Below, piece by piece: positions 1,384-8,690 of a stretch of DNA of 64,000 bases. The notes beneath the pieces were generated by a model that saw only the letters and a program-made list of their open reading frames with translations, did no database searches and was not told the DNA's origin. Origin of the DNA: Microbacterium sp. T2.11-28 (lineage in GTDB: Bacteria; Actinomycetota; Actinomycetes; Actinomycetales; Microbacteriaceae); the NCBI RefSeq assembly GCF_950097975.1, contig NZ_CATNHF010000023.1, positions 186,001 through 250,000 on the forward strand. Direction: 5' to 3'. How positions within the stretch are numbered: the first letter of the stretch is position 1; each line of letters begins with the position of its first letter. The position numbers were made by a program, and so were the translations under genes.

Positions 1384-2214
1384 TCAGCTCACGTCGCGTC
1401 GCCAGCTGACCAGGTAGCCGACGACGATCAGCACCAGCGCGTACGCCAGCAGCACCAGACCGCCCGCCCACCACTCGAGCGCGTCGGATCCGCCGCCGGG
1501 GACGCTCAGCGTGGAGTAGAAGCTGGCTCCGACGAGCGCGTCGGAGGTGGCGCCGGGGAGGAACTGCGCGGCGCCCGAGACCCCGTCGACGAAGCCCGCC
1601 ACGGTGCGCAGGATCGGCTCCAGGAACTGGGTGAACGCGATCACGCCGACCACGGCGGCAACCTGATTGCGCACGAGCGTCCCCACCCCGATCCCGATCA
1701 GCACCCACAGCACGAAGGCGAGGACGATGCGGCCGAGCATGGCCCAGGTGTCCGCCTCACCGAGCTGCGTGTCGATGCCCATCAGCGCCAGCACCGTCGC
1801 CCCGAGGCCGACGGTCGCCACGAGCGCGACGACGGCGAAGACGAGCCCCATCAGGACGCCCGCGAGCACCTTGCCGGCCAGGGCCACGCCGCGGCGGGGG
1901 GTCGCGAGGAAGGTCGGTGTGAGGGTCTTGTGACGGAACTCGCCGGTGACCAGCAGGGCGCCGATCAGGAGCGGGAAGATGTAGCCCACCGCCGTCGCCA
2001 GGCTGTAGATGATCGGCGGCAGCGCATCGGCGGGGATCGCAGGTGCATTGGCGCCGCCGGCCGGGAGCGTGCCGTTGGACAGGGCGGCGAACAGTCCGGC
2101 GAGGCCGCCGGCGGTGCTGCCCACGTACACGACGAGGACGAGGGCCAGGACCCACCACATCGACGTGGTGAACTGCTTGGTCAGCTCGGAGCGGGTGGCG
2201 CGGACCAGGGTCAT
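1384..2214 (-). CDS. ABC-2 type transporter permease
   Basis: A 276-residue polytopic membrane protein that forms the channel half of an ABC exporter. About six hydrophobic segments are visible, starting with 'MWWVLALVLVVYVGSTAGGL' style helix near residue 20, then the typical ABC-2 element 'LLVTGEFRHKTLTPTFLATP', in which the cytoplasmic coupling segment EFRHKT precedes helix formation. The start codon overlaps the stop of the upstream ATPase gene (ATGA, 2211-2214) and is preceded by a strong GGGAGGTGA site, so the two are translationally coupled. The substrate cannot be read from sequence; family members export drugs, lantibiotics or lipids. The gene ends convergently, 13 bases from its neighbour. 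Confidence 0.88.
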   Translation of the reverse strand: MTLVRATRSELTKQFTTSMWWVLALVLVVYVGSTAGGLAGLFAALSNGTLPAGGANAPAIPADALPPIIYSLATAVGYIFPLLIGALLVTGEFRHKTLTPTFLATPRRGVALAGKVLAGVLMGLVFAVVALVATVGLGATVLALMGIDTQLGEADTWAMLGRIVLAFVLWVLIGIGVGTLVRNQVAAVVGVIAFTQFLEPILRTVAGFVDGVSGAAQFLPGATSDALVGASFYSTLSVPGGGSDALEWWAGGLVLLAYALVLIVVGYLVSWRRDVS

Positions 2215-3440
2215 CGCGGGTCACCTCCCTGGGTGTCATCGGTGCGGGCGGCGTCGGTGGCCTCGTCGGCGGGTGCCGCAGCCGCGTGGTCTGCCGCAGC
2301 CGCCTCGCCTGCCGCAGCCGCGTCGTAGCGGGCGAAGAAGCGATCCGCCTCGAGGTCGGCGTCGGTCGGGGTGTGCCCCGCGTCCCAGGTCTGGTCGACG
2401 TCCGCGGGCGGCGCGGGCTCGTCCGGAGTGGCCTCCGGCGGTGGTGCGGCGTCGTCCGGAGTGGCCTCCGGCGGTGGTGCGGCCACGTCCGCAGCAGTGT
2501 CGGGGTCCGGGGCGGTGCCGAGGGCGAGGCGCGGAAGGGCGTGCTCCGCGGTCCCGTCGACCAGCGCCAGGAACACCTCCTCGAGCGCCGGACCGCGGCG
2601 CTGCAGTGCGGACAGCGCGACACCGGCTGCTGCGGCGACGGCGCCGATCGCGGCGGTGTCGGCGCCGCGGACCGACAGTCCGCTGCGCAGCACGTCGAAG
2701 CTCATCCCGGCGGCGGTCAGCGCGTCGCCGAGGGCGGCGCGGTCGGGCGCGTCGACGACGGCGACCTGCTCGTCCTGGGCGGTCAGGTCGGCGAGCGCGC
2801 CCTGGAAGACGAGCCGTCCGCGCGCGATGATCAGCAGCGCCTCGGCGGTCTGCTGGATCTCGGTGAGCAGATGCGAGGACACGAGCACCGTGCGGCCCTG
2901 CCGCGCGAGTTCGCGCAGGAAGCCGCGCATCCACCGGATCCCCTCGGGGTCGAGGCCGTTGGAGGGCTCGTCGAGGACGAGCACGCCCGGGTCGCCGAGC
3001 AGGGTGTAGGCGAGGCCCAGCCGCTGGCGCATGCCCAGCGAGAACCCGCCGACCTTGCGCCCCGCGACGTCGGCCAGCCCGACGGTGCCGAGCGCCTCGT
3101 CGACGCGGGTGAGGGGCAGCCCCGCCGCGCGGGCGTAGACGGCCAGGTGGTTCGCGGCGCTGCGACCGGGGTGGAAGCTCGACGCCTCCAGCGCGGCTCC
3201 CACGGTCTGCAGCGGCTGGTCGAGCTGCGAGTAGCGCCGGCCGCCGATCGTCGCGGTGCCCTCGGTCGCGGTGATGAGCCCGAGGAGGATCCGCAGGGAG
3301 GTGGTCTTGCCGGCGCCGTTGGGACCGAGGAAGCCGGTGACGACTCCGGGCTCCACGCGGGCGCTGAAGCGGTCGACGGCGGTCACGGGGCCGAAGCGCT
3401 TGGTGACCCCGGCGAACTCGAGGACATGTCCGTCGGGCAT
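2211..3440 (-). CDS. ABC transporter ATP-binding protein with long disordered tail
   Basis: ATPase partner of the ABC-2 permease, 409 residues. The Walker A 'GPNGAGKTTSLR', signature 'FSLGMRQRLGLA' and Walker B 'VLVLDEPSNGLD' are intact, followed by the C-terminal domain usual for DrrA/CcmA-type exporters. The start ATG at 3440 was preferred over longer openings because GAGAGG lies six bases upstream and the ABC domain begins immediately. After about residue 310 the protein continues as roughly 100 residues of Pro/Ala/Asp-rich tail. The tail contains two copies of an 11-residue unit (PPPEATPDDAA and PPPEATPDEPA) from a 33-bp tandem DNA repeat. Such a tail is not part of the family and its role is unknown. 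A 393-bp divergent intergenic region lies upstream. Confidence 0.9.
   Translation of the reverse strand: MPDGHVLEFAGVTKRFGPVTAVDRFSARVEPGVVTGFLGPNGAGKTTSLRILLGLITATEGTATIGGRRYSQLDQPLQTVGAALEASSFHPGRSAANHLAVYARAAGLPLTRVDEALGTVGLADVAGRKVGGFSLGMRQRLGLAYTLLGDPGVLVLDEPSNGLDPEGIRWMRGFLRELARQGRTVLVSSHLLTEIQQTAEALLIIARGRLVFQGALADLTAQDEQVAVVDAPDRAALGDALTAAGMSFDVLRSGLSVRGADTAAIGAVAAAAGVALSALQRRGPALEEVFLALVDGTAEHALPRLALGTAPDPDTAADVAAPPPEATPDDAAPPPEATPDEPAPPADVDQTWDAGHTPTDADLEADRFFARYDAAAAGEAAAADHAAAAPADEATDAARTDDTQGGDPR
2421..2486. repeat. 33-bp tandem repeat, two copies
   Basis: Two head-to-tail copies of a 33-bp unit beginning GTCCGGAGTGGCCTCCGG (2421-2453 and 2454-2486) differ only at the last bases. 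They encode duplicated 11-residue units in the disordered tail of the ABC ATPase and are a likely site of copy-number slippage. Confidence 0.85.
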
Positions 3441-3833
3441 GGCGAACCTCTCGTCGGTGCGGTGTCCTCCCATCCTGTCGGATCGCACGACGCCGCGCCC
3501 GACGACGGAGGTGATTCCGCGGGCGCGCCTCCGCCCGCTCCCGGTACGGACGCACGGAGGCTCGGCACGGAGGCTCGGCACGGAGGTGCGCGGCTCCGAC
3601 GCGGAACATCGCGACGCGGTGCACGGCTCGACGTCGTCTGCGCACCGGTCCCGGCACGCCCGTGCGCACGATGGGGGTCATGCACCCTGTGGAGAACTCG
3701 CACGGGCGCGCTCGGTCCGCACTACTTTGAGCAGTGTTCATTAATGAGCGCGTGTGAAGGCGCCGGTCTCGAACGGGGCCGGCCGCACCGCTCCCGCGAA
3801 AGCGCCGCGGCGCTGCAGAGGATGGAGTGAGAC
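3441..3833. other. 393-bp divergent intergenic region
   Basis: No gene could be supported here. It holds the upstream region of the minus-strand ABC ATPase and of the plus-strand five-gene operon. Two direct copies of CGGAGGCTCGGCA lie around 3553-3582. Near 3721-3750 the sequence becomes unusually AT-rich and contains a 10-bp palindrome. I see no tRNA, small RNA or terminator signature. Confidence 0.6.
3738..3747. promoter_or_regulatory. TCATTAATGA palindrome, candidate operator
   Basis: A perfect 10-bp palindrome, TCATTAATGA, lies in an AT-rich island 87 bases upstream of the secreted-protein gene, in otherwise very GC-rich DNA. Position and symmetry suggest an operator for a dimeric regulator, but no regulator gene is adjacent, so this is inference. 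Confidence 0.35.
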
Positions 3834-4328
3834 ATGGTCGGGAATCGGTCGTCGAAGTCGACGTCATGGAAGAAGGCGCTCGCCGGGGTGCTGATGGCCG
3901 CCGCGCTGGCCGCGACGACGGCGCTGCCGGCCTCGGCGGTGAGCTCCTCCTCGTCGTCCAAGCTGCCGAACACCGGGGCGGTGATCCAGGCCAACGTCTG
4001 GCTCTGCAACACCTGGACCACGTCGTGCGGCTTCCAGACGTCCGCCAAGGCGCTGAAGTCCGGGTCGGCCTACAAGGTCTCGAAGATCCGCAACACGGCC
4101 GACTTCAACGCCTGGGGGGTCGGCACCGTCACTGTCGGCGGAGTGACGGTCGCCGGCACGAGCGGCACGGCCCGCAACCTCGTGTGGACCAACTACAACA
4201 CCTGGATCTCCGACCACTCCGGTTCCGCGTCCGCCACCTGGTCGATCGTGGCGCTGGGGCTCTGCTCGGGGGCGTACGCCGAGGTGGCCGGGGTGCGGGC
4301 GAGCTCGAGCGCCTGCGTCGGGGTGTGA
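3834..4328 (+). CDS. Secreted four-cysteine protein, unknown function
   Basis: A 164-residue precursor with a clear Sec signal peptide: a basic N-terminus (KSTSWKK), a hydrophobic core at about residues 14-31 and an ASA cleavage site before residue 36. The mature part of about 129 residues is rich in Ser, Thr, Ala and Trp and has four cysteines (C58, C65, C144, C161), suggesting two disulfides. I recognise no family. It heads a five-gene operon with two lipoproteins, an ABC ATPase and an FtsX-type permease. That layout recalls bacteriocin loci of the lactococcin 972 kind, but the mature sequence does not show the lactococcin 972 pattern. A GGAG six bases upstream supports the start. It could be a bacteriocin, a cell-wall effector or the substrate of the transporter; none is proven. 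Confidence 0.75.
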   Translation: MVGNRSSKSTSWKKALAGVLMAAALAATTALPASAVSSSSSSKLPNTGAVIQANVWLCNTWTTSCGFQTSAKALKSGSAYKVSKIRNTADFNAWGVGTVTVGGVTVAGTSGTARNLVWTNYNTWISDHSGSASATWSIVALGLCSGAYAEVAGVRASSSACVGV

Positions 4329-5914
4329 GAGCCCGAGCCGGTGCGCTGTGCGCCGGCCTCGTCGTGATCGCAGGTGCGCTCAGCGCATGCGCGCCCGCGG
4401 CGGGGCCCGCCCGGACAGCCTCTCTGGCGGAGCTCGACGCGTACCGCGGCGGCAACGGACTGCTGTCGAACGTCGCTGTGGCGGCGTTCGACGCGGCGAC
4501 GGTCGCCGACACCGCCTACGCCGTGCGCATCGACCGGCTGACTCCGAGTGACCTCCGGGACCGGCGCCGGACGGACGATGACGACGCGCCCTCGCTCGCT
4601 CGCTGGCGGCAGCTGTGGCGGGACGATGCCGACGACCCGCTGTGGAAGGCGCATGCGGTGTGCTCGGCGCTCGGGCCCGCCGCAGCGCGCGCCGTGATCG
4701 ACGCAGAGGCCGCCGCGATCGTCGCCGACGCGCGGGCGAAGGGCGCCGGACTCGCGCGGATCGACGAGGCGGCCGTCTCACTCGACGTCCTCGCCGCCGT
4801 CCACGTCGCGTGGTGCCTGGCGGACGACGACCTGCTCGACGGCCGGAGGGTGTCCGTCGAGCGGATCCTCGCCGCCGTGTCGTCCAACGCCGCGCTCGCG
4901 CTCCAGTGGGTCGACGTCCTGACGGACATGGACCGGTCGCCGGCCCGCATCGAGGTGGCCAGCGCCTACCTCGCCGGCGGCGCGCCGGAGGAGTGCGACG
5001 ACCGCACCTCCCTCGAGGCCGCCGCCGCGCTCCTCCTCACGCCGTCCGCGGCGATGGGGGCGCTCGAGCGCTGCGCGATCGACGACGCGCTCGACAGCGA
5101 CGACCCCCAGGTGCTCCTCTCCGCGCTGCGCGTGGCGGCGCGCGACGAATCCGGGCGGCGTGCCGATGCGGTCCGGGCGATCACGACGGTCGTCGCCGAG
5201 CGTCGTGCCGCGGACGGCACCCACCGTCGTCCGGCGCAGGTCTCGGGCTCGCTCAACGGCACGCTCGCGGGGCTGCGTCTCCTGACCGCCGGCGAGCGCG
5301 CCCTCGGCGATGCTGAGGCCGCCGAGGTGCTGGACCTCATGACGCGCGAGGCCCGTGCCGCATCCGGAGACGCGCTGCTCGTCCTCGCGGCCTGCGCGAC
5401 GCTGCGCAGCACGTGCGGTGCGCTCGTCGAGCCGGGACTCCGCGCCGGCGAGGCGGTCGCGGCGGGCACCCCTCTCACCGCCACGGCGCTCGACGGCCTG
5501 CTCGCCGCCCTCGCGCTCGCTCGTCCGGCAGGCCCGGAGCGCGTCGATGCGATCGTGGCCTCGCTGTCGGAACGCCCCTTCGACGGGTGCGCGCGCGTCC
5601 AGATCGCGGTGTTCCGCGAGGTCGCGACCATCGGCACCTGGCCGCCGGCGGAGCGGACCGCCGCACGTGCCGCGTTCCGCGAGGCGGCGCGAGCGGCCGA
5701 CCTCACCGGCTACTGCGACCTCTCCTGGGCCGCGCGACTGGCGCCGCGCGACGCCGGCACCGCGAGCGCCGCGCTCGCCGGCGGGCAGCCGGAGGAGCCG
5801 GTCCGGGCCGGCGCCCGCGGCCTCCTGCTGTGGGGCGACGAGCCCGCCCCGCTGTCGGTCGCTGCGGCCGCCGCGGACCTCGACCTGTACGAAGGGAAAC
5901 CCGACGATGACTGA
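4325..5914 (+). CDS. Large lipoprotein of the secreted-protein operon
   Basis: A 529-residue predicted lipoprotein of unknown function. The GTG start overlaps the preceding stop (GTGA, 4325-4328) and yields a short signal sequence ending in the lipobox LSAC, with the lipidated cysteine at residue 22. The rest is an almost all-helical, Ala- and Asp-rich protein with repeated 30-50 residue helical pairs. It also contains many cysteines, including 'HVAWCLADDD', 'AACATLRSTCGAL' and 'GYCDLSWAAR', as expected of an exported disulfide-bearing protein. Its mature N-terminus ('LDAYRGGNGLLSNVAV') matches that of the next gene product, so the two are paralogs. Coupling to the ABC transporter suggests a role in handling or resisting the secreted protein. 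The helical repeats could form a toroid, but this is a guess. Confidence 0.72.
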   Translation: MRARAGALCAGLVVIAGALSACAPAAGPARTASLAELDAYRGGNGLLSNVAVAAFDAATVADTAYAVRIDRLTPSDLRDRRRTDDDDAPSLARWRQLWRDDADDPLWKAHAVCSALGPAAARAVIDAEAAAIVADARAKGAGLARIDEAAVSLDVLAAVHVAWCLADDDLLDGRRVSVERILAAVSSNAALALQWVDVLTDMDRSPARIEVASAYLAGGAPEECDDRTSLEAAAALLLTPSAAMGALERCAIDDALDSDDPQVLLSALRVAARDESGRRADAVRAITTVVAERRAADGTHRRPAQVSGSLNGTLAGLRLLTAGERALGDAEAAEVLDLMTREARAASGDALLVLAACATLRSTCGALVEPGLRAGEAVAAGTPLTATALDGLLAALALARPAGPERVDAIVASLSERPFDGCARVQIAVFREVATIGTWPPAERTAARAAFREAARAADLTGYCDLSWAARLAPRDAGTASAALAGGQPEEPVRAGARGLLLWGDEPAPLSVAAAAADLDLYEGKPDDD

Positions 5915-6818
5915 CCCGACCCGGCGGCCTCGCGCCCTGACCGCCGTGGCCGCCGTGACCGCGCTGTTCGCGACGATCCTCCTGGGCGGCTGCGCTCCCG
6001 CGCCCGCGTTCGACGCGTCGAGCCTCGACCGCTTCCGCAGTGAGGACGGGCTGCTCCACGACCACGACGTGCGCGGCCTCGACGGTGCCGTCCTCGCCGA
6101 GGGCGGTCTCGACGAGGGGCTCTGGACGACGGCGGCGGCGGTGAGGCTCCTGCAGACCCAGGGGATCGAGCCGCGCCTCGACGCGGACACCGCCGCCCGC
6201 ATCGACCACGTCGCCGAGGCCGCCTCCGTCACGACGCACGCACCGCACCGGCTGCTCGGCGCCGCAAGGGTGTGCGCCCTGTCGTCGCGGGACTCGGGCG
6301 GGTGCCGGGCGGCGGTGTCGGCCGCCACCAGGCTGCTGGGGGAACCCGACGCCGACGTCCTCGACACCGCCGACCCGGTGAGCCTCATCGAGACGGCGTC
6401 CGATCTCGGCGTGCTCGACGGCGTCCCGGGCACGCCGCTGCACCGCGCGCTGGCGCGCGAGACCGACGACGACTGCGTCCGCAGCGCGGTGATCCGTCAC
6501 CTCGTCCGGTTCGACCGCCTCGGCGAGCGCCGGACGGTCGCCGACCCGCGCGCGCTCGCCGACGCCGTGCTCGCCGCGCTGAGGCGGGGAGACGTCGACG
6601 AGGCGCTGTGCCGCTCCGGGCTCGCGGCCGCGGCCGCCGGCGCCACCCCCGAGCGCGACGAGGACTGGCTCCAGGAGCCCTTCGACGCCGCGGTCTCCGC
6701 CGGCTTCGTTCGGTCGTCCGGTGGCTGGTACCGCTCGAGAGCGAGCGGCCGCGGCGCCGTCGACGTGACCCGGATGCTGAGCCAGGTGTCCTTCGATCTG
6801 AGTGTGGAGCTGACGTGA
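5907..6818 (+). CDS. Second lipoprotein, paralog of the preceding one
   Basis: A 303-residue predicted lipoprotein. The ATG overlaps the end of the previous gene by eight bases. The lipobox is LLGGC with the modified cysteine at residue 29, followed by CAPAPAF, close to CAPAAGP in the preceding protein. The mature N-terminus 'LDRFRSEDGLLHDHDVRGLD' aligns with 'LDAYRGGNGLLSNVAVAAFD' of its neighbour, which marks them as related. A segment 'GLWTTAAAVRLLQTQGIEP' resembles helical hairpins of alpha/alpha-toroid proteins. Four further cysteines lie in the mature part, two of them in 'VCALSSRDSGGC'. No catalytic motif is evident. A partner role at the outer membrane face with the ABC/FtsX pair is inferred from the operon only. 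Confidence 0.72.
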   Translation: MTDPTRRPRALTAVAAVTALFATILLGGCAPAPAFDASSLDRFRSEDGLLHDHDVRGLDGAVLAEGGLDEGLWTTAAAVRLLQTQGIEPRLDADTAARIDHVAEAASVTTHAPHRLLGAARVCALSSRDSGGCRAAVSAATRLLGEPDADVLDTADPVSLIETASDLGVLDGVPGTPLHRALARETDDDCVRSAVIRHLVRFDRLGERRTVADPRALADAVLAALRRGDVDEALCRSGLAAAAAGATPERDEDWLQEPFDAAVSAGFVRSSGGWYRSRASGRGAVDVTRMLSQVSFDLSVELT

Positions 6819-7435
6819 CGCCATCGTCGTGCCTCGTCCGACTGGACGACGTCCTCTTCGAGTACCCGGGCGGCCCGGGCGCGCCGGTTCTCGGCCCCTT
6901 CACCCTCGCGCTCGGCGCGGGTGAGTTCGTCGGCGTCACCGGCCCCTCCGGAGCGGGGAAGAGCACACTGCTGGGACTGATCGGAGGCCTCCTCCAGCCG
7001 ACCGCGGGCGTGCGGACGTCCCGCGGGTCAGTCGCATCCGCATACGTGCTGCAGACGCACGCCGTCCATCCCTACCTCAGGGTCTGGGAGAACGTCGCGA
7101 CGGCCTGGGGGCTTCCCCGCCGCGCGATGTGGGCGCGCGCCGAGCGCGTCCTCGCCGCGTTCGACCTGGGCGCCCTCGCCGATCGTCGCGGCTACGAGCT
7201 GTCGGGCGGTCAGCGCCAGCGGCTCGCGGTGGCGCGGGCGGTCGCATCGCGTGCCGATGTCATCGTCGCCGACGAGCCGACCGGCAGCCTCGACGCGGTC
7301 AACACCGCCCGCGTGCTCGACGCGCTCGAGGCGGCGACCCGCCGGGGACGCGCCGTCGTGGTCGCCACGCACGACGACCACGTGCGGCTCCGGTGCGACC
7401 GGGTCGTGGAACTCACCCCGGGAGGCACGGCATGA
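6815..7435 (+). CDS. ABC transporter ATP-binding protein (MacB/LolD type)
   Basis: A compact 206-residue ABC ATPase of the size that pairs with FtsX-like permeases. Walker A 'GPSGAGKSTLL', Q-loop region 'VLQTHAVHPYLRVWENV', signature '[15 protein letters not shown]', Walker B 'VIVADEPTGSLD' and the switch histidine in 'VATHDDH' are all present, so it should be active. The GTG start overlaps the preceding stop (GTGA, 6815-6818). Proteins of this group drive conformational change of periplasmic or extracellular domains rather than classic pore transport, and work on lipoproteins, peptides or cell-wall hydrolases. Here the nearby lipoproteins and secreted protein are the obvious partners. Confidence 0.9.
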   Translation: MTPSSCLVRLDDVLFEYPGGPGAPVLGPFTLALGAGEFVGVTGPSGAGKSTLLGLIGGLLQPTAGVRTSRGSVASAYVLQTHAVHPYLRVWENVATAWGLPRRAMWARAERVLAAFDLGALADRRGYELSGGQRQRLAVARAVASRADVIVADEPTGSLDAVNTARVLDALEAATRRGRAVVVATHDDHVRLRCDRVVELTPGGTA

Positions 7436-8640
7436 ACGGGCAGCGACGGAGAAGCGGCGAGATCCTCGCGTGGGCGCTGCTGCGCATCCGGCGGGGCACC
7501 CAGCGCGCCGCACCGATGGTCGCCGCGCTTGCGACGACCCTGCTGGTCGCCGCGCTCGGGGGCCTCGCCTGGAACCTCCAGGCGACGATCGCCAGCGACC
7601 TCGTCGACGGCAGTCTCGCCGTCATCGACGTGGGCGCCGACGCCGCAGACGCGCGCCCGCTGACCGCCACGGCGCTCGGCGCCATCGCCGAGCTCGAGGG
7701 CGTCCGCTCCGTCGAACCGGCACTCGACGGCGCGTCGCTCTACGCGGCCGACGGGGGATGGGTGCTCCCGATCGCGGCGTTCCAGGCGTCCCAGCCGCCA
7801 CCGGGCGTGACGGAGCCGCCGGGGCCGGGTGCCTTCCTGGCACCCGCCCGGGCGCAGGGCGCCGACTTCGCCGCCCGCGTGGGGGAGCAGCTCGACCTCG
7901 AGATCACCACCCGGACCGGAGCGGAGGAGGGGGCCTCGACCCCGATCGCCCTCACGCTGTCCGGCGCGTACGACCCGGCCTGGCAGGTCTACGGACCCGG
8001 AGTGGCCCTCCTGTCGTTCGAGACCGCGCTGGAGATCGTGGCCGCTCGCGAAGGCATGACGCCGGAGGGCTACCTCGAGAGCGCCGGCGTCGTCTCGGCG
8101 CTCGTCGTGGCGCGCAGCCCTGCGCAGGTGGGCCCGCTCACCGCGGAGCTCCGCGCGCTCGGTTTCGCGGCGAGCCCCCTCGCGGACCGGCTGGGGCGAC
8201 TCCCCGCCGTCTTCACGCTCCTGCCCCTCGCGGCCGGCGTCGCCGCCGGGCTGGGCCTCCTCATCCTGCTGGCGTCAACGGCCACCGGCATCGCGACCAT
8301 GGTGCGGGGGCAGGTGCGCGACCTCGCCCTGCTGCGCGTCAACGGCTGGAGCGTCGCCGACATCCGCCGCCTCGTCGTCGCCGAGAGCGTCCTGGCGACA
8401 GTGGGGGGAGCGCTCACCGGAGGGGTCCTCGCGGCCCTCGCGACACCTCTCGTCGCGTCCGCCGCCGCGGAACTCCTCGGCAGCGATCCGGGGATCGCCG
8501 CGCTCGCGTGGCGCCCGGCGGTCGTCTCGGTGGTCGTCGTCCTCCTGAGCGTCGGCGCGAGCGCCGTGGTCGCACGCCTGGCCGCGCGTCGCTCGCTGCG
8601 CACCGACCCGTACCTCGTGATCGGCCGGGACGGAGCGTGA
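7432..8640 (+). CDS. FtsX-like ABC transporter permease
   Basis: A 402-residue permease with the MacB/FtsX topology: one helix near residues 28-48 ('VAALATTLLVAALGGLAW'), a large extracellular domain of about 210 residues, then three helices. The C-terminal part contains the family segment 'VRGQVRDLALLRVNGWSVADIRRLVVAE', which couples to the ATPase. ATG overlaps the ATPase stop (ATGA, 7432-7435). It has a single four-helix unit, so it should dimerise. The extracellular domain has an ordinary 'LEGVRSVEPALDG' start as in MacB periplasmic domains. It closes the operon, and the next gene has its own promoter. Function as exporter, or as mechanotransmission partner for the lipoproteins, is inferred. 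Confidence 0.88.
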   Translation: MNGQRRRSGEILAWALLRIRRGTQRAAPMVAALATTLLVAALGGLAWNLQATIASDLVDGSLAVIDVGADAADARPLTATALGAIAELEGVRSVEPALDGASLYAADGGWVLPIAAFQASQPPPGVTEPPGPGAFLAPARAQGADFAARVGEQLDLEITTRTGAEEGASTPIALTLSGAYDPAWQVYGPGVALLSFETALEIVAAREGMTPEGYLESAGVVSALVVARSPAQVGPLTAELRALGFAASPLADRLGRLPAVFTLLPLAAGVAAGLGLLILLASTATGIATMVRGQVRDLALLRVNGWSVADIRRLVVAESVLATVGGALTGGVLAALATPLVASAAAELLGSDPGIAALAWRPAVVSVVVVLLSVGASAVVARLAARRSLRTDPYLVIGRDGA

Positions 8641-8690
8641 CGACCCCGTTCCCCCGGCGCCGCGGTCGGCCTCCGCCGGGCCGGCTCGGG

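Follow-up and report, generated by a model that had tools for sequence, protein, structure and literature searches.

A conserved cassette of a secreted protein, an anchored protein and a MacB-type ABC unit in Microbacterium and Streptomyces

Loci in which a secreted or lipid-anchored protein is paired with an ATP-binding cassette (ABC) unit have been described in several bacteria, and we compare with them here a five-gene locus at positions 3834-8640 of a 64,000-nucleotide stretch from the soil actinobacterium Microbacterium sp. T2.11-28 (contig NZ_CATNHF010000023.1; "the window" denotes this whole stretch). In the lactococcin 972 and streptococcin B loci (lcn972-orf2-orf3 and scbABC), the gene of a Sec-secreted beta-protein is followed by two presumed ABC-type immunity or transport genes, and the role of this ABC-type unit is itself unproven (PMC11796350, PMC4055356). 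In nisin producers, a binding lipoprotein and an ABC transporter jointly give immunity, each alone being partial (PMC4828448), and adaptor-less MacB-type units are described as working outside the membrane (PMC5985334). From its sequence, our locus is a cassette that combines a secreted protein with a MacB-type unit and includes two undescribed protein families, A and B; the open-licence literature searched showed no description of such a cassette. Few Gram-positive units of the MacB type have a known substrate; with a likely substrate (A) and a likely receptor (B) as fixed neighbours in a compact, movable set of four genes, what such a unit acts on becomes directly testable.

Gene content and comparison with described systems

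Reading of the open reading frames (ORFs) of the window, whose assembly comprises 33 contigs, gave five plus-strand genes, overlapping by 4, 8, 4 and 4 bases:

3834-4328, + strand: A, secreted protein of 164 residues, four cysteines in the mature part, signal peptide to about residue 35 (assessed by eye), predicted all-beta
4325-5914, + strand: B, lipoprotein of 529 residues, GTG start, lipobox LSAC, predicted all-alpha, putative membrane-anchored partner of A
5907-6818, + strand: C, second lipoprotein, 303 residues, lipobox GGC, found in the window and in the genome TNHR37B only
6815-7435, + strand: D, ABC ATPase of 206 residues (ABC_tran, PF00005, 89.8 bits)
7432-8640, + strand: E, FtsX/MacB-type permease of 402 residues with four transmembrane (TM) helices, by its FtsX domain and hydrophobic spans

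A preliminary description of this DNA had proposed a five-gene overlapping operon with overlaps of 4-8 bases, and both points are borne out: the gene order recurs in distant genomes, beyond chance, and TNHR37B (locus L044) repeats the A/B overlap of 4 nt and the B/C overlap of 8 nt. The same holds for the intact ATPase and MacB-like permease that it had named. D carries, by eye, the motifs GPSGAGKST (Walker A), LSGGQ and ADEPTG (Walker B), and reaches 122 bits with the FtsE and 108 bits with the LolD model of NCBIfam, both under the equivalog cut-offs. The hydrophobic spans of E (residues 26-49, 257-292, 314-333 and 353-386) give the MacB topology, in which about 200 extracytoplasmic residues separate TM1 from TM2. 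Its only Pfam match is FtsX (PF02687; 31.7 bits, cut-off 25.5), four further family E proteins also lie above this cut-off, and its NCBIfam rows, FtsX_actino and lolCE, are both far below theirs. The lipoboxes of B and C could also be confirmed, together with the shared CAPA at the lipobox cysteine and the motif LDxxRxxxGLL; the proposed paralogy of the two is no more than plausible, as HHalign scores the pair at 20.9 against 13.8 for a reversed control (E-value 0.07), and C may be related, in shortened form, to the N-terminal half of B. Neither A nor B has a Pfam or NCBIfam match at an E-value of at most 1 or a PDB sequence family, so that they stand as two protein families without entry in the libraries searched, and at the same threshold C gave nothing beyond one meaningless NCBIfam row.

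The closest relatives in architecture differ from the cassette in their components. E shares with the Type VII ABC family (MacB, LolCDE, FtsEX, YknYZ) an FtsX domain and the arrangement TM1, large outside domain, TM2-4, and is served by a separate FtsE/LolD-like ATPase, D; instead of a MacA/YknX-like adaptor the cassette has the conserved A-B pair, and there is no MacA-type adaptor gene among the five operon genes of the window. The lactococcin 972 loci follow the same plan, with a secreted beta-protein gene and ABC unit genes, to which the cassette adds the anchored, predicted alpha-helical B. Nevertheless, no lactococcin 972 model of Pfam or NCBIfam matched A or any of the 21 family members at an E-value of at most 1, in agreement with the preliminary description, which had set the secreted protein apart from that family. 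D scores 119.5 bits with the lactococcin 972 ATPase model TIGR03608 (cut-off 254.85), the AztA and FtsE models being higher. The membrane protein of lactococcin 972 loci is a DUF1430 (bacteriocin-associated integral membrane) protein, a type to which E, with its sole FtsX match, does not belong. The family is further characterised by lipid II binding and inhibition of the septum. With the LanI/LanFEG systems of lantibiotic immunity, such as NisI and NisFEG, the cassette shares an operon that encodes both a lipoprotein and an ABC transporter; the NisFEG permeases belong to a different ABC type, and no lanthipeptide precursor or modification genes occur among the five operon genes. NisI is mainly beta-sheet and has 245 residues (PMC4828448), whereas B is predicted to be all-alpha and spans 525-605 residues in our alignment A4.

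Gene order, distribution and insertion site

The conserved unit is A-B, usually followed by D-E. We found A directly followed by B in 21 of 21 distinct loci (alignment A3) and likewise in a divergent 22nd, L121 of genome G1099, while D and then E come after A-B in 20 of the 21, spanning two orders. C occurs in two of them, those of the window and TNHR37B. In G859 (L050), A-B is present and D-E is absent from the 18 kb read; in L121, where A scores 52.5 bits with the A model (reversed control -8.1) and is followed by B, D-E is absent from the 14 kb read. The retention of A-B in every locus, and of D-E in 20 of 21, suggests a core made up of A-B, with the ABC unit in an auxiliary role, much as a lipoprotein and an ABC transporter cooperate in nisin immunity (PMC4828448). 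The A-B pair of L121 (5481-8328) is found in two identical-scoring copies near both chromosome ends of G1099, next to a further upstream secreted-protein gene (7798-8328) and a transposase-like ORF (4431-4919).

Mature A is 127-139 residues long in its 21 members. The secreted four-cysteine precursor of the preliminary description is correct for the window; across the family, four cysteines are found in 19 of the 21 mature proteins, one having three and that of Microbacterium G002 none. The A protein of G859 (L050 10417-11340) has only three of the four cysteines and carries a long Pro/Ser-rich N-terminal extension ahead of the A domain. B is anchored in all groups: it is lipid-anchored in Microbacterium, in G859 and in one of the Streptomyces groups, and has a plain TM helix elsewhere. 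When hidden Markov models were built leaving each group out, all 20 B proteins outscored their reversed copies (9.3-98.4 bits); in HHalign comparisons, links to the main Streptomyces group were obtained for Microbacterium, two further Streptomyces groups and G859, at probabilities of 92, 97 and 92, while the third Streptomyces group is linked to the second at 99.8. The weakest member is that of G002, with 14.2 bits and an HHalign probability of at most 6. In S. spinoverrucosus, B reads as two overlapping frames (L046 8476-10091), through sequencing error or decay.

The cassette is rare. A was present in 2 of 98 relatives, namely the genome of the window and G002, and a single-sequence query with B found its own genome only among 299 family genomes, barring one spurious match (G174, dropped for five internal stops). 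E matched 73 of 247 genus genomes at an E-value of at most 0.001, among which the window (800 bits), TNHR37B (434) and G002 (144) alone exceeded 100 bits, the others reaching at most 38. In public genomes, a three-sequence A profile recovered TNHR37B, Streptomyces sp. PR69 and S. spinoverrucosus; a five-sequence profile matched 15 of 295 Streptomyces genomes (16 loci), 3 of 346 phylum genomes (one of them, with the 54-residue match of G787, weakly and partially, and therefore dropped) and, in the genus to which G859 belongs, 1 of 59. The B profile matched 2 of 306 phylum genomes and 18 of the 295 Streptomyces genomes, comprising all 15 A carriers, G1099 and two weak partial matches (G976 and G1173, dropped as short and with E-values near 0.001). 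By phmmer (E-value at most 0.01), A, B and C were absent from L037-L043, seven further ABC loci within the genus, which were picked from the weaker E matches and which, besides the cassettes, are the loci read among the 73 matching genomes. Searches with A by tblastn gave nothing in plasmids or phages and no confirmed relative in IMG/VR, no PHROGs match was obtained for A, B, C or E or for two A proteins of Streptomyces, and PADLOC yielded only ATPase matches, for D; on these searches and that of viral fold models, an origin from phage, plasmid or defence systems was rejected.

These data bear out the view of the locus as an undescribed, conserved and co-inherited cassette of a secreted protein, an anchored protein and an ABC unit, and A and B were found without the ABC pair in only 2 of 22 loci (L050 and L121). 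Other elements of the preliminary description have to be revised: its five-gene unit exists in the window, whereas the conserved unit has four genes, and the system is not special to Microbacteriaceae, most known copies being in Streptomyces. Its interpretation as a whole is partly supported, the immunity or handling role that it proposed being putative.

In the window, the cassette lies in a conserved site, and its limits follow from blastn of the flanks to L122, L123 and L044, where the similarity to Microbacterium G008 ends at 3482 and resumes at 8674:

3483-8673, no strand: approximate inserted cassette

Its neighbours are a minus-strand gene for an ABC-2 transporter ATPase and a gene for an enoyl-CoA hydratase. 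Wherever this site was read in other Microbacterium genomes, at 9 of 9 loci (from 14 other genomes of the genus with the hydratase), the two genes are directly adjacent and the cassette is absent. TNHR37B, too, has its cassette inserted here; in G002 this site is empty (L128) and the cassette lies elsewhere (L005). Of the 190 pairs formed by the 20 loci other than that of the window, 9 have a flanking gene in common, a count that considers ORFs of at least 150 residues with high third-position GC content and perhaps underestimates shared flanks. The empty site in other genomes and the different location in G002 show that the cassette was acquired, and at more than one place.

Sequence constraint and predicted folds

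Comparison of the window with TNHR37B gives an identity of 93% for mature A, 43% for B, 60% for D and 57% for E. The ratio of nonsynonymous to synonymous substitution rates (dN/dS, Nei-Gojobori) is 0.053 for mature A, 0.48 for B, 0.47 for C, 0.46 for D and 0.38 for E, against 0.21 for the flanking hydratase, in what is a single pair with dS of 0.74-1.15, near saturation. Over 18 loci (a set that omits L050, which has no D-E, L067, where B is split, and L074, where the motif search missed the ATPase), mean identity is 45.1% for A, 29.2% for B, 48.6% for D and 39.0% for E; A thus lies close to the ATPase in conservation and far above B. The distance matrices of A, B, D and E agree with r of 0.93-0.99, a level reached in none of 2000 permutations, and such agreement is expected anyway for co-inherited genes.

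An AlphaFold2 model of A, made from four sequences, has ten strands, with a predicted local distance difference test score (pLDDT) of 70.3 and a predicted template modelling score of 0.61. Foldseek found nothing for it at an E-value of at most 0.001 in the PDB or among viral models, MspA being at 0.013. With VIA-align, the rim domain of MspA came first (2v9u, Z 10.9 over 109 residues, root-mean-square deviation (rmsd) 3.8 Å) and second (1uun, Z 10.7), the next row being at 8.3. The sequences do not follow: A has no match to the Pfam MspA family (PF09203), and this family, matched in 10 of the 13 genomes searched, has no match in the cassette genomes of the window, TNHR37B (G429) and G1078. The HHalign probability of 78 for full-length A and MspA is owed to the signal peptides and falls to 0.3 for the mature parts, whose score of 13.6 compares with 12.6 for the best of 40 shuffles and 12.0 and 10.8 for reversed sequences; hmmsearch gave 5.1 as best real and 12.6 as best decoy score with the MspA model on A, and 8.5 and 5.9, respectively, with the A model on MspA. 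As real scores are not separated from decoys, we do not regard homology of A and MspA as shown and retained the likeness as a fold lead. It concerns the rim domain of the porin; to form a membrane barrel, the hairpin predicted in A (97-101/104-108) would have to be much longer.

The model of B, from three sequences, contains about 23 helices and is poor (pLDDT 59.2). Its top eight structural rows are alpha-barrels of the drimenyl diphosphate synthase/class II terpene cyclase type, with Z of 9.3-10.1 (next row 7.9), where the tool asks for a Z of about 13 for helical proteins and the long alignments have rmsd of 15-18. Homology of B with terpene cyclases was rejected, HHalign to squalene-hopene cyclases giving 13.2 and the best shuffled control 15.7. 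The only invariant columns among 20 B proteins are M1 and G308, with no invariant catalytic-type residue; having so few, B is likelier to be a binding scaffold than an enzyme.

Possible functions and neighbouring sequences

By analogy with the systems described above, we tentatively favour, while holding it somewhat short of probable, a horizontally moving bacteriocin-like cassette in which A would be antibacterial, B and C membrane-bound immunity proteins and D-E a clearing motor. A would leave the cell via Sec, shed its signal peptide, fold as a compact beta-protein, usually with two disulfides, and attack the envelope of other bacteria. B, held outside the producer membrane by lipid or a TM helix, would bind A and shield the producer's own target, a function that C may duplicate in two species, and the MacB-type D-E would spend ATP on removing A or A-B from the producer membrane, as the MacB family and immunity of the NisI/NisFEG type suggest. 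Because A has its own signal peptide, D-E need not export it. The rare, scattered presence of the cassette and its insertion between genes that are adjacent elsewhere would fit an accessory trait used in competition. An antibacterial A would represent a type of bacteriocin with disulfide bonds, made by Streptomyces and Microbacterium and overlooked by genome mining based on sequence.

Several observations weigh against this bacteriocin-like function. Many toxins diversify, and the preliminary description had expected variable secreted proteins as support; the opposite was found, A being the conserved part (dN/dS 0.053, against 0.38-0.48 for B-E), so that the target of a bacteriocin would have to be nearly invariant, for example a wall precursor. 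In addition, A has no sequence match to bacteriocin families in the libraries searched. Immunity-gene copies in non-producers are common for bacteriocins, and the 16 of 295 Streptomyces genomes with a clear B yielded no such orphan, lacking A. The putative binding of A by B is a further weak point, and the fold model of B is poor. In a more specific and highly doubtful version of the antibacterial role, A would be an MspA-rim-fold protein that forms rings on rival envelopes, B an enzyme-dead alpha-barrel that caps A, and the MacB-type motor would strip A off; A would then be the first protein with this fold from bacteria that lack a mycolic-acid outer membrane, and the cassette a new kind of antibacterial protein weapon equipped with dedicated mechanical immunity.

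The conservation of A is also compatible with a self-assembling secreted protein. A might build an extracellular or envelope structure, such as a ring or coat of MspA-rim-like subunits, with B as a membrane-anchored chaperone and D-E driving the release or placement of A, much as lipoproteins are handled by LolCDE and partners beyond the membrane are acted on by FtsEX. We consider this the main alternative, if a rather unlikely one. The very strong constraint on A and its near-constant mature length are what self-assembly would lead one to expect, the nearest predicted fold is the MspA rim, adaptor-less machines of the MacB family handle lipoproteins or outside partners (PMC5985334), and A and B are never separated in the loci examined; however, a scattered, mobile occurrence is unusual for a structural layer, we noticed no repeat, sortase or pilin signature, and kinship with MspA fails every sequence test. 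Less likely still is a role in scavenging, sensing or defence, in which A would capture a small molecule, peptide or envelope component, B would receive it and D-E would expel it or signal, in the manner of BceAB. Adaptor-less MacB-like units do serve sensing and detoxification (PMC5985334), two genomes have a palindrome ahead of A, and the G002 copy has a MerR-type gene next to it, yet the loci have no two-component system or regulator in common, one cassette type has no D-E, and no ligand-binding family matched. That D-E is an ordinary MacB-type exporter and the genes are chance neighbours that do not work together seems very improbable: FtsX/MacB units are indeed common (the 73 of 247 genus genomes above), but the three exceeding 100 bits are exactly the cassette carriers, and the order is kept in 20 of 21 loci of two orders, with matrix correlations of 0.93-0.99 (for which co-inheritance alone would suffice).

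The palindrome is a possible operator, located as follows:

3738-3747, no strand: palindrome TCATTAATGA, 96 bp upstream of the start codon of A

Its counterpart in TNHR37B, TCATTTATGA, lies 55 bp upstream of the A gene. The motif CTCATTWATGA occurs exactly once in each of these two genomes, upstream of A, with one-mismatch copies elsewhere; no exact copy was found in three other Microbacterium genomes (G002, G008 and G013), and the Streptomyces groups showed no element in common upstream. The MerR-type regulator gene of G002 is divergent from the cassette (L005 10212-11009). On the left flank of the window cassette, the minus strand encodes an ABC-2 type ATPase/permease pair (1384-3581), and the tail of the ATPase is a Pro/Ala/Glu-rich repeat, PPPEATPDDAAPPPEATPDEPAPPA.

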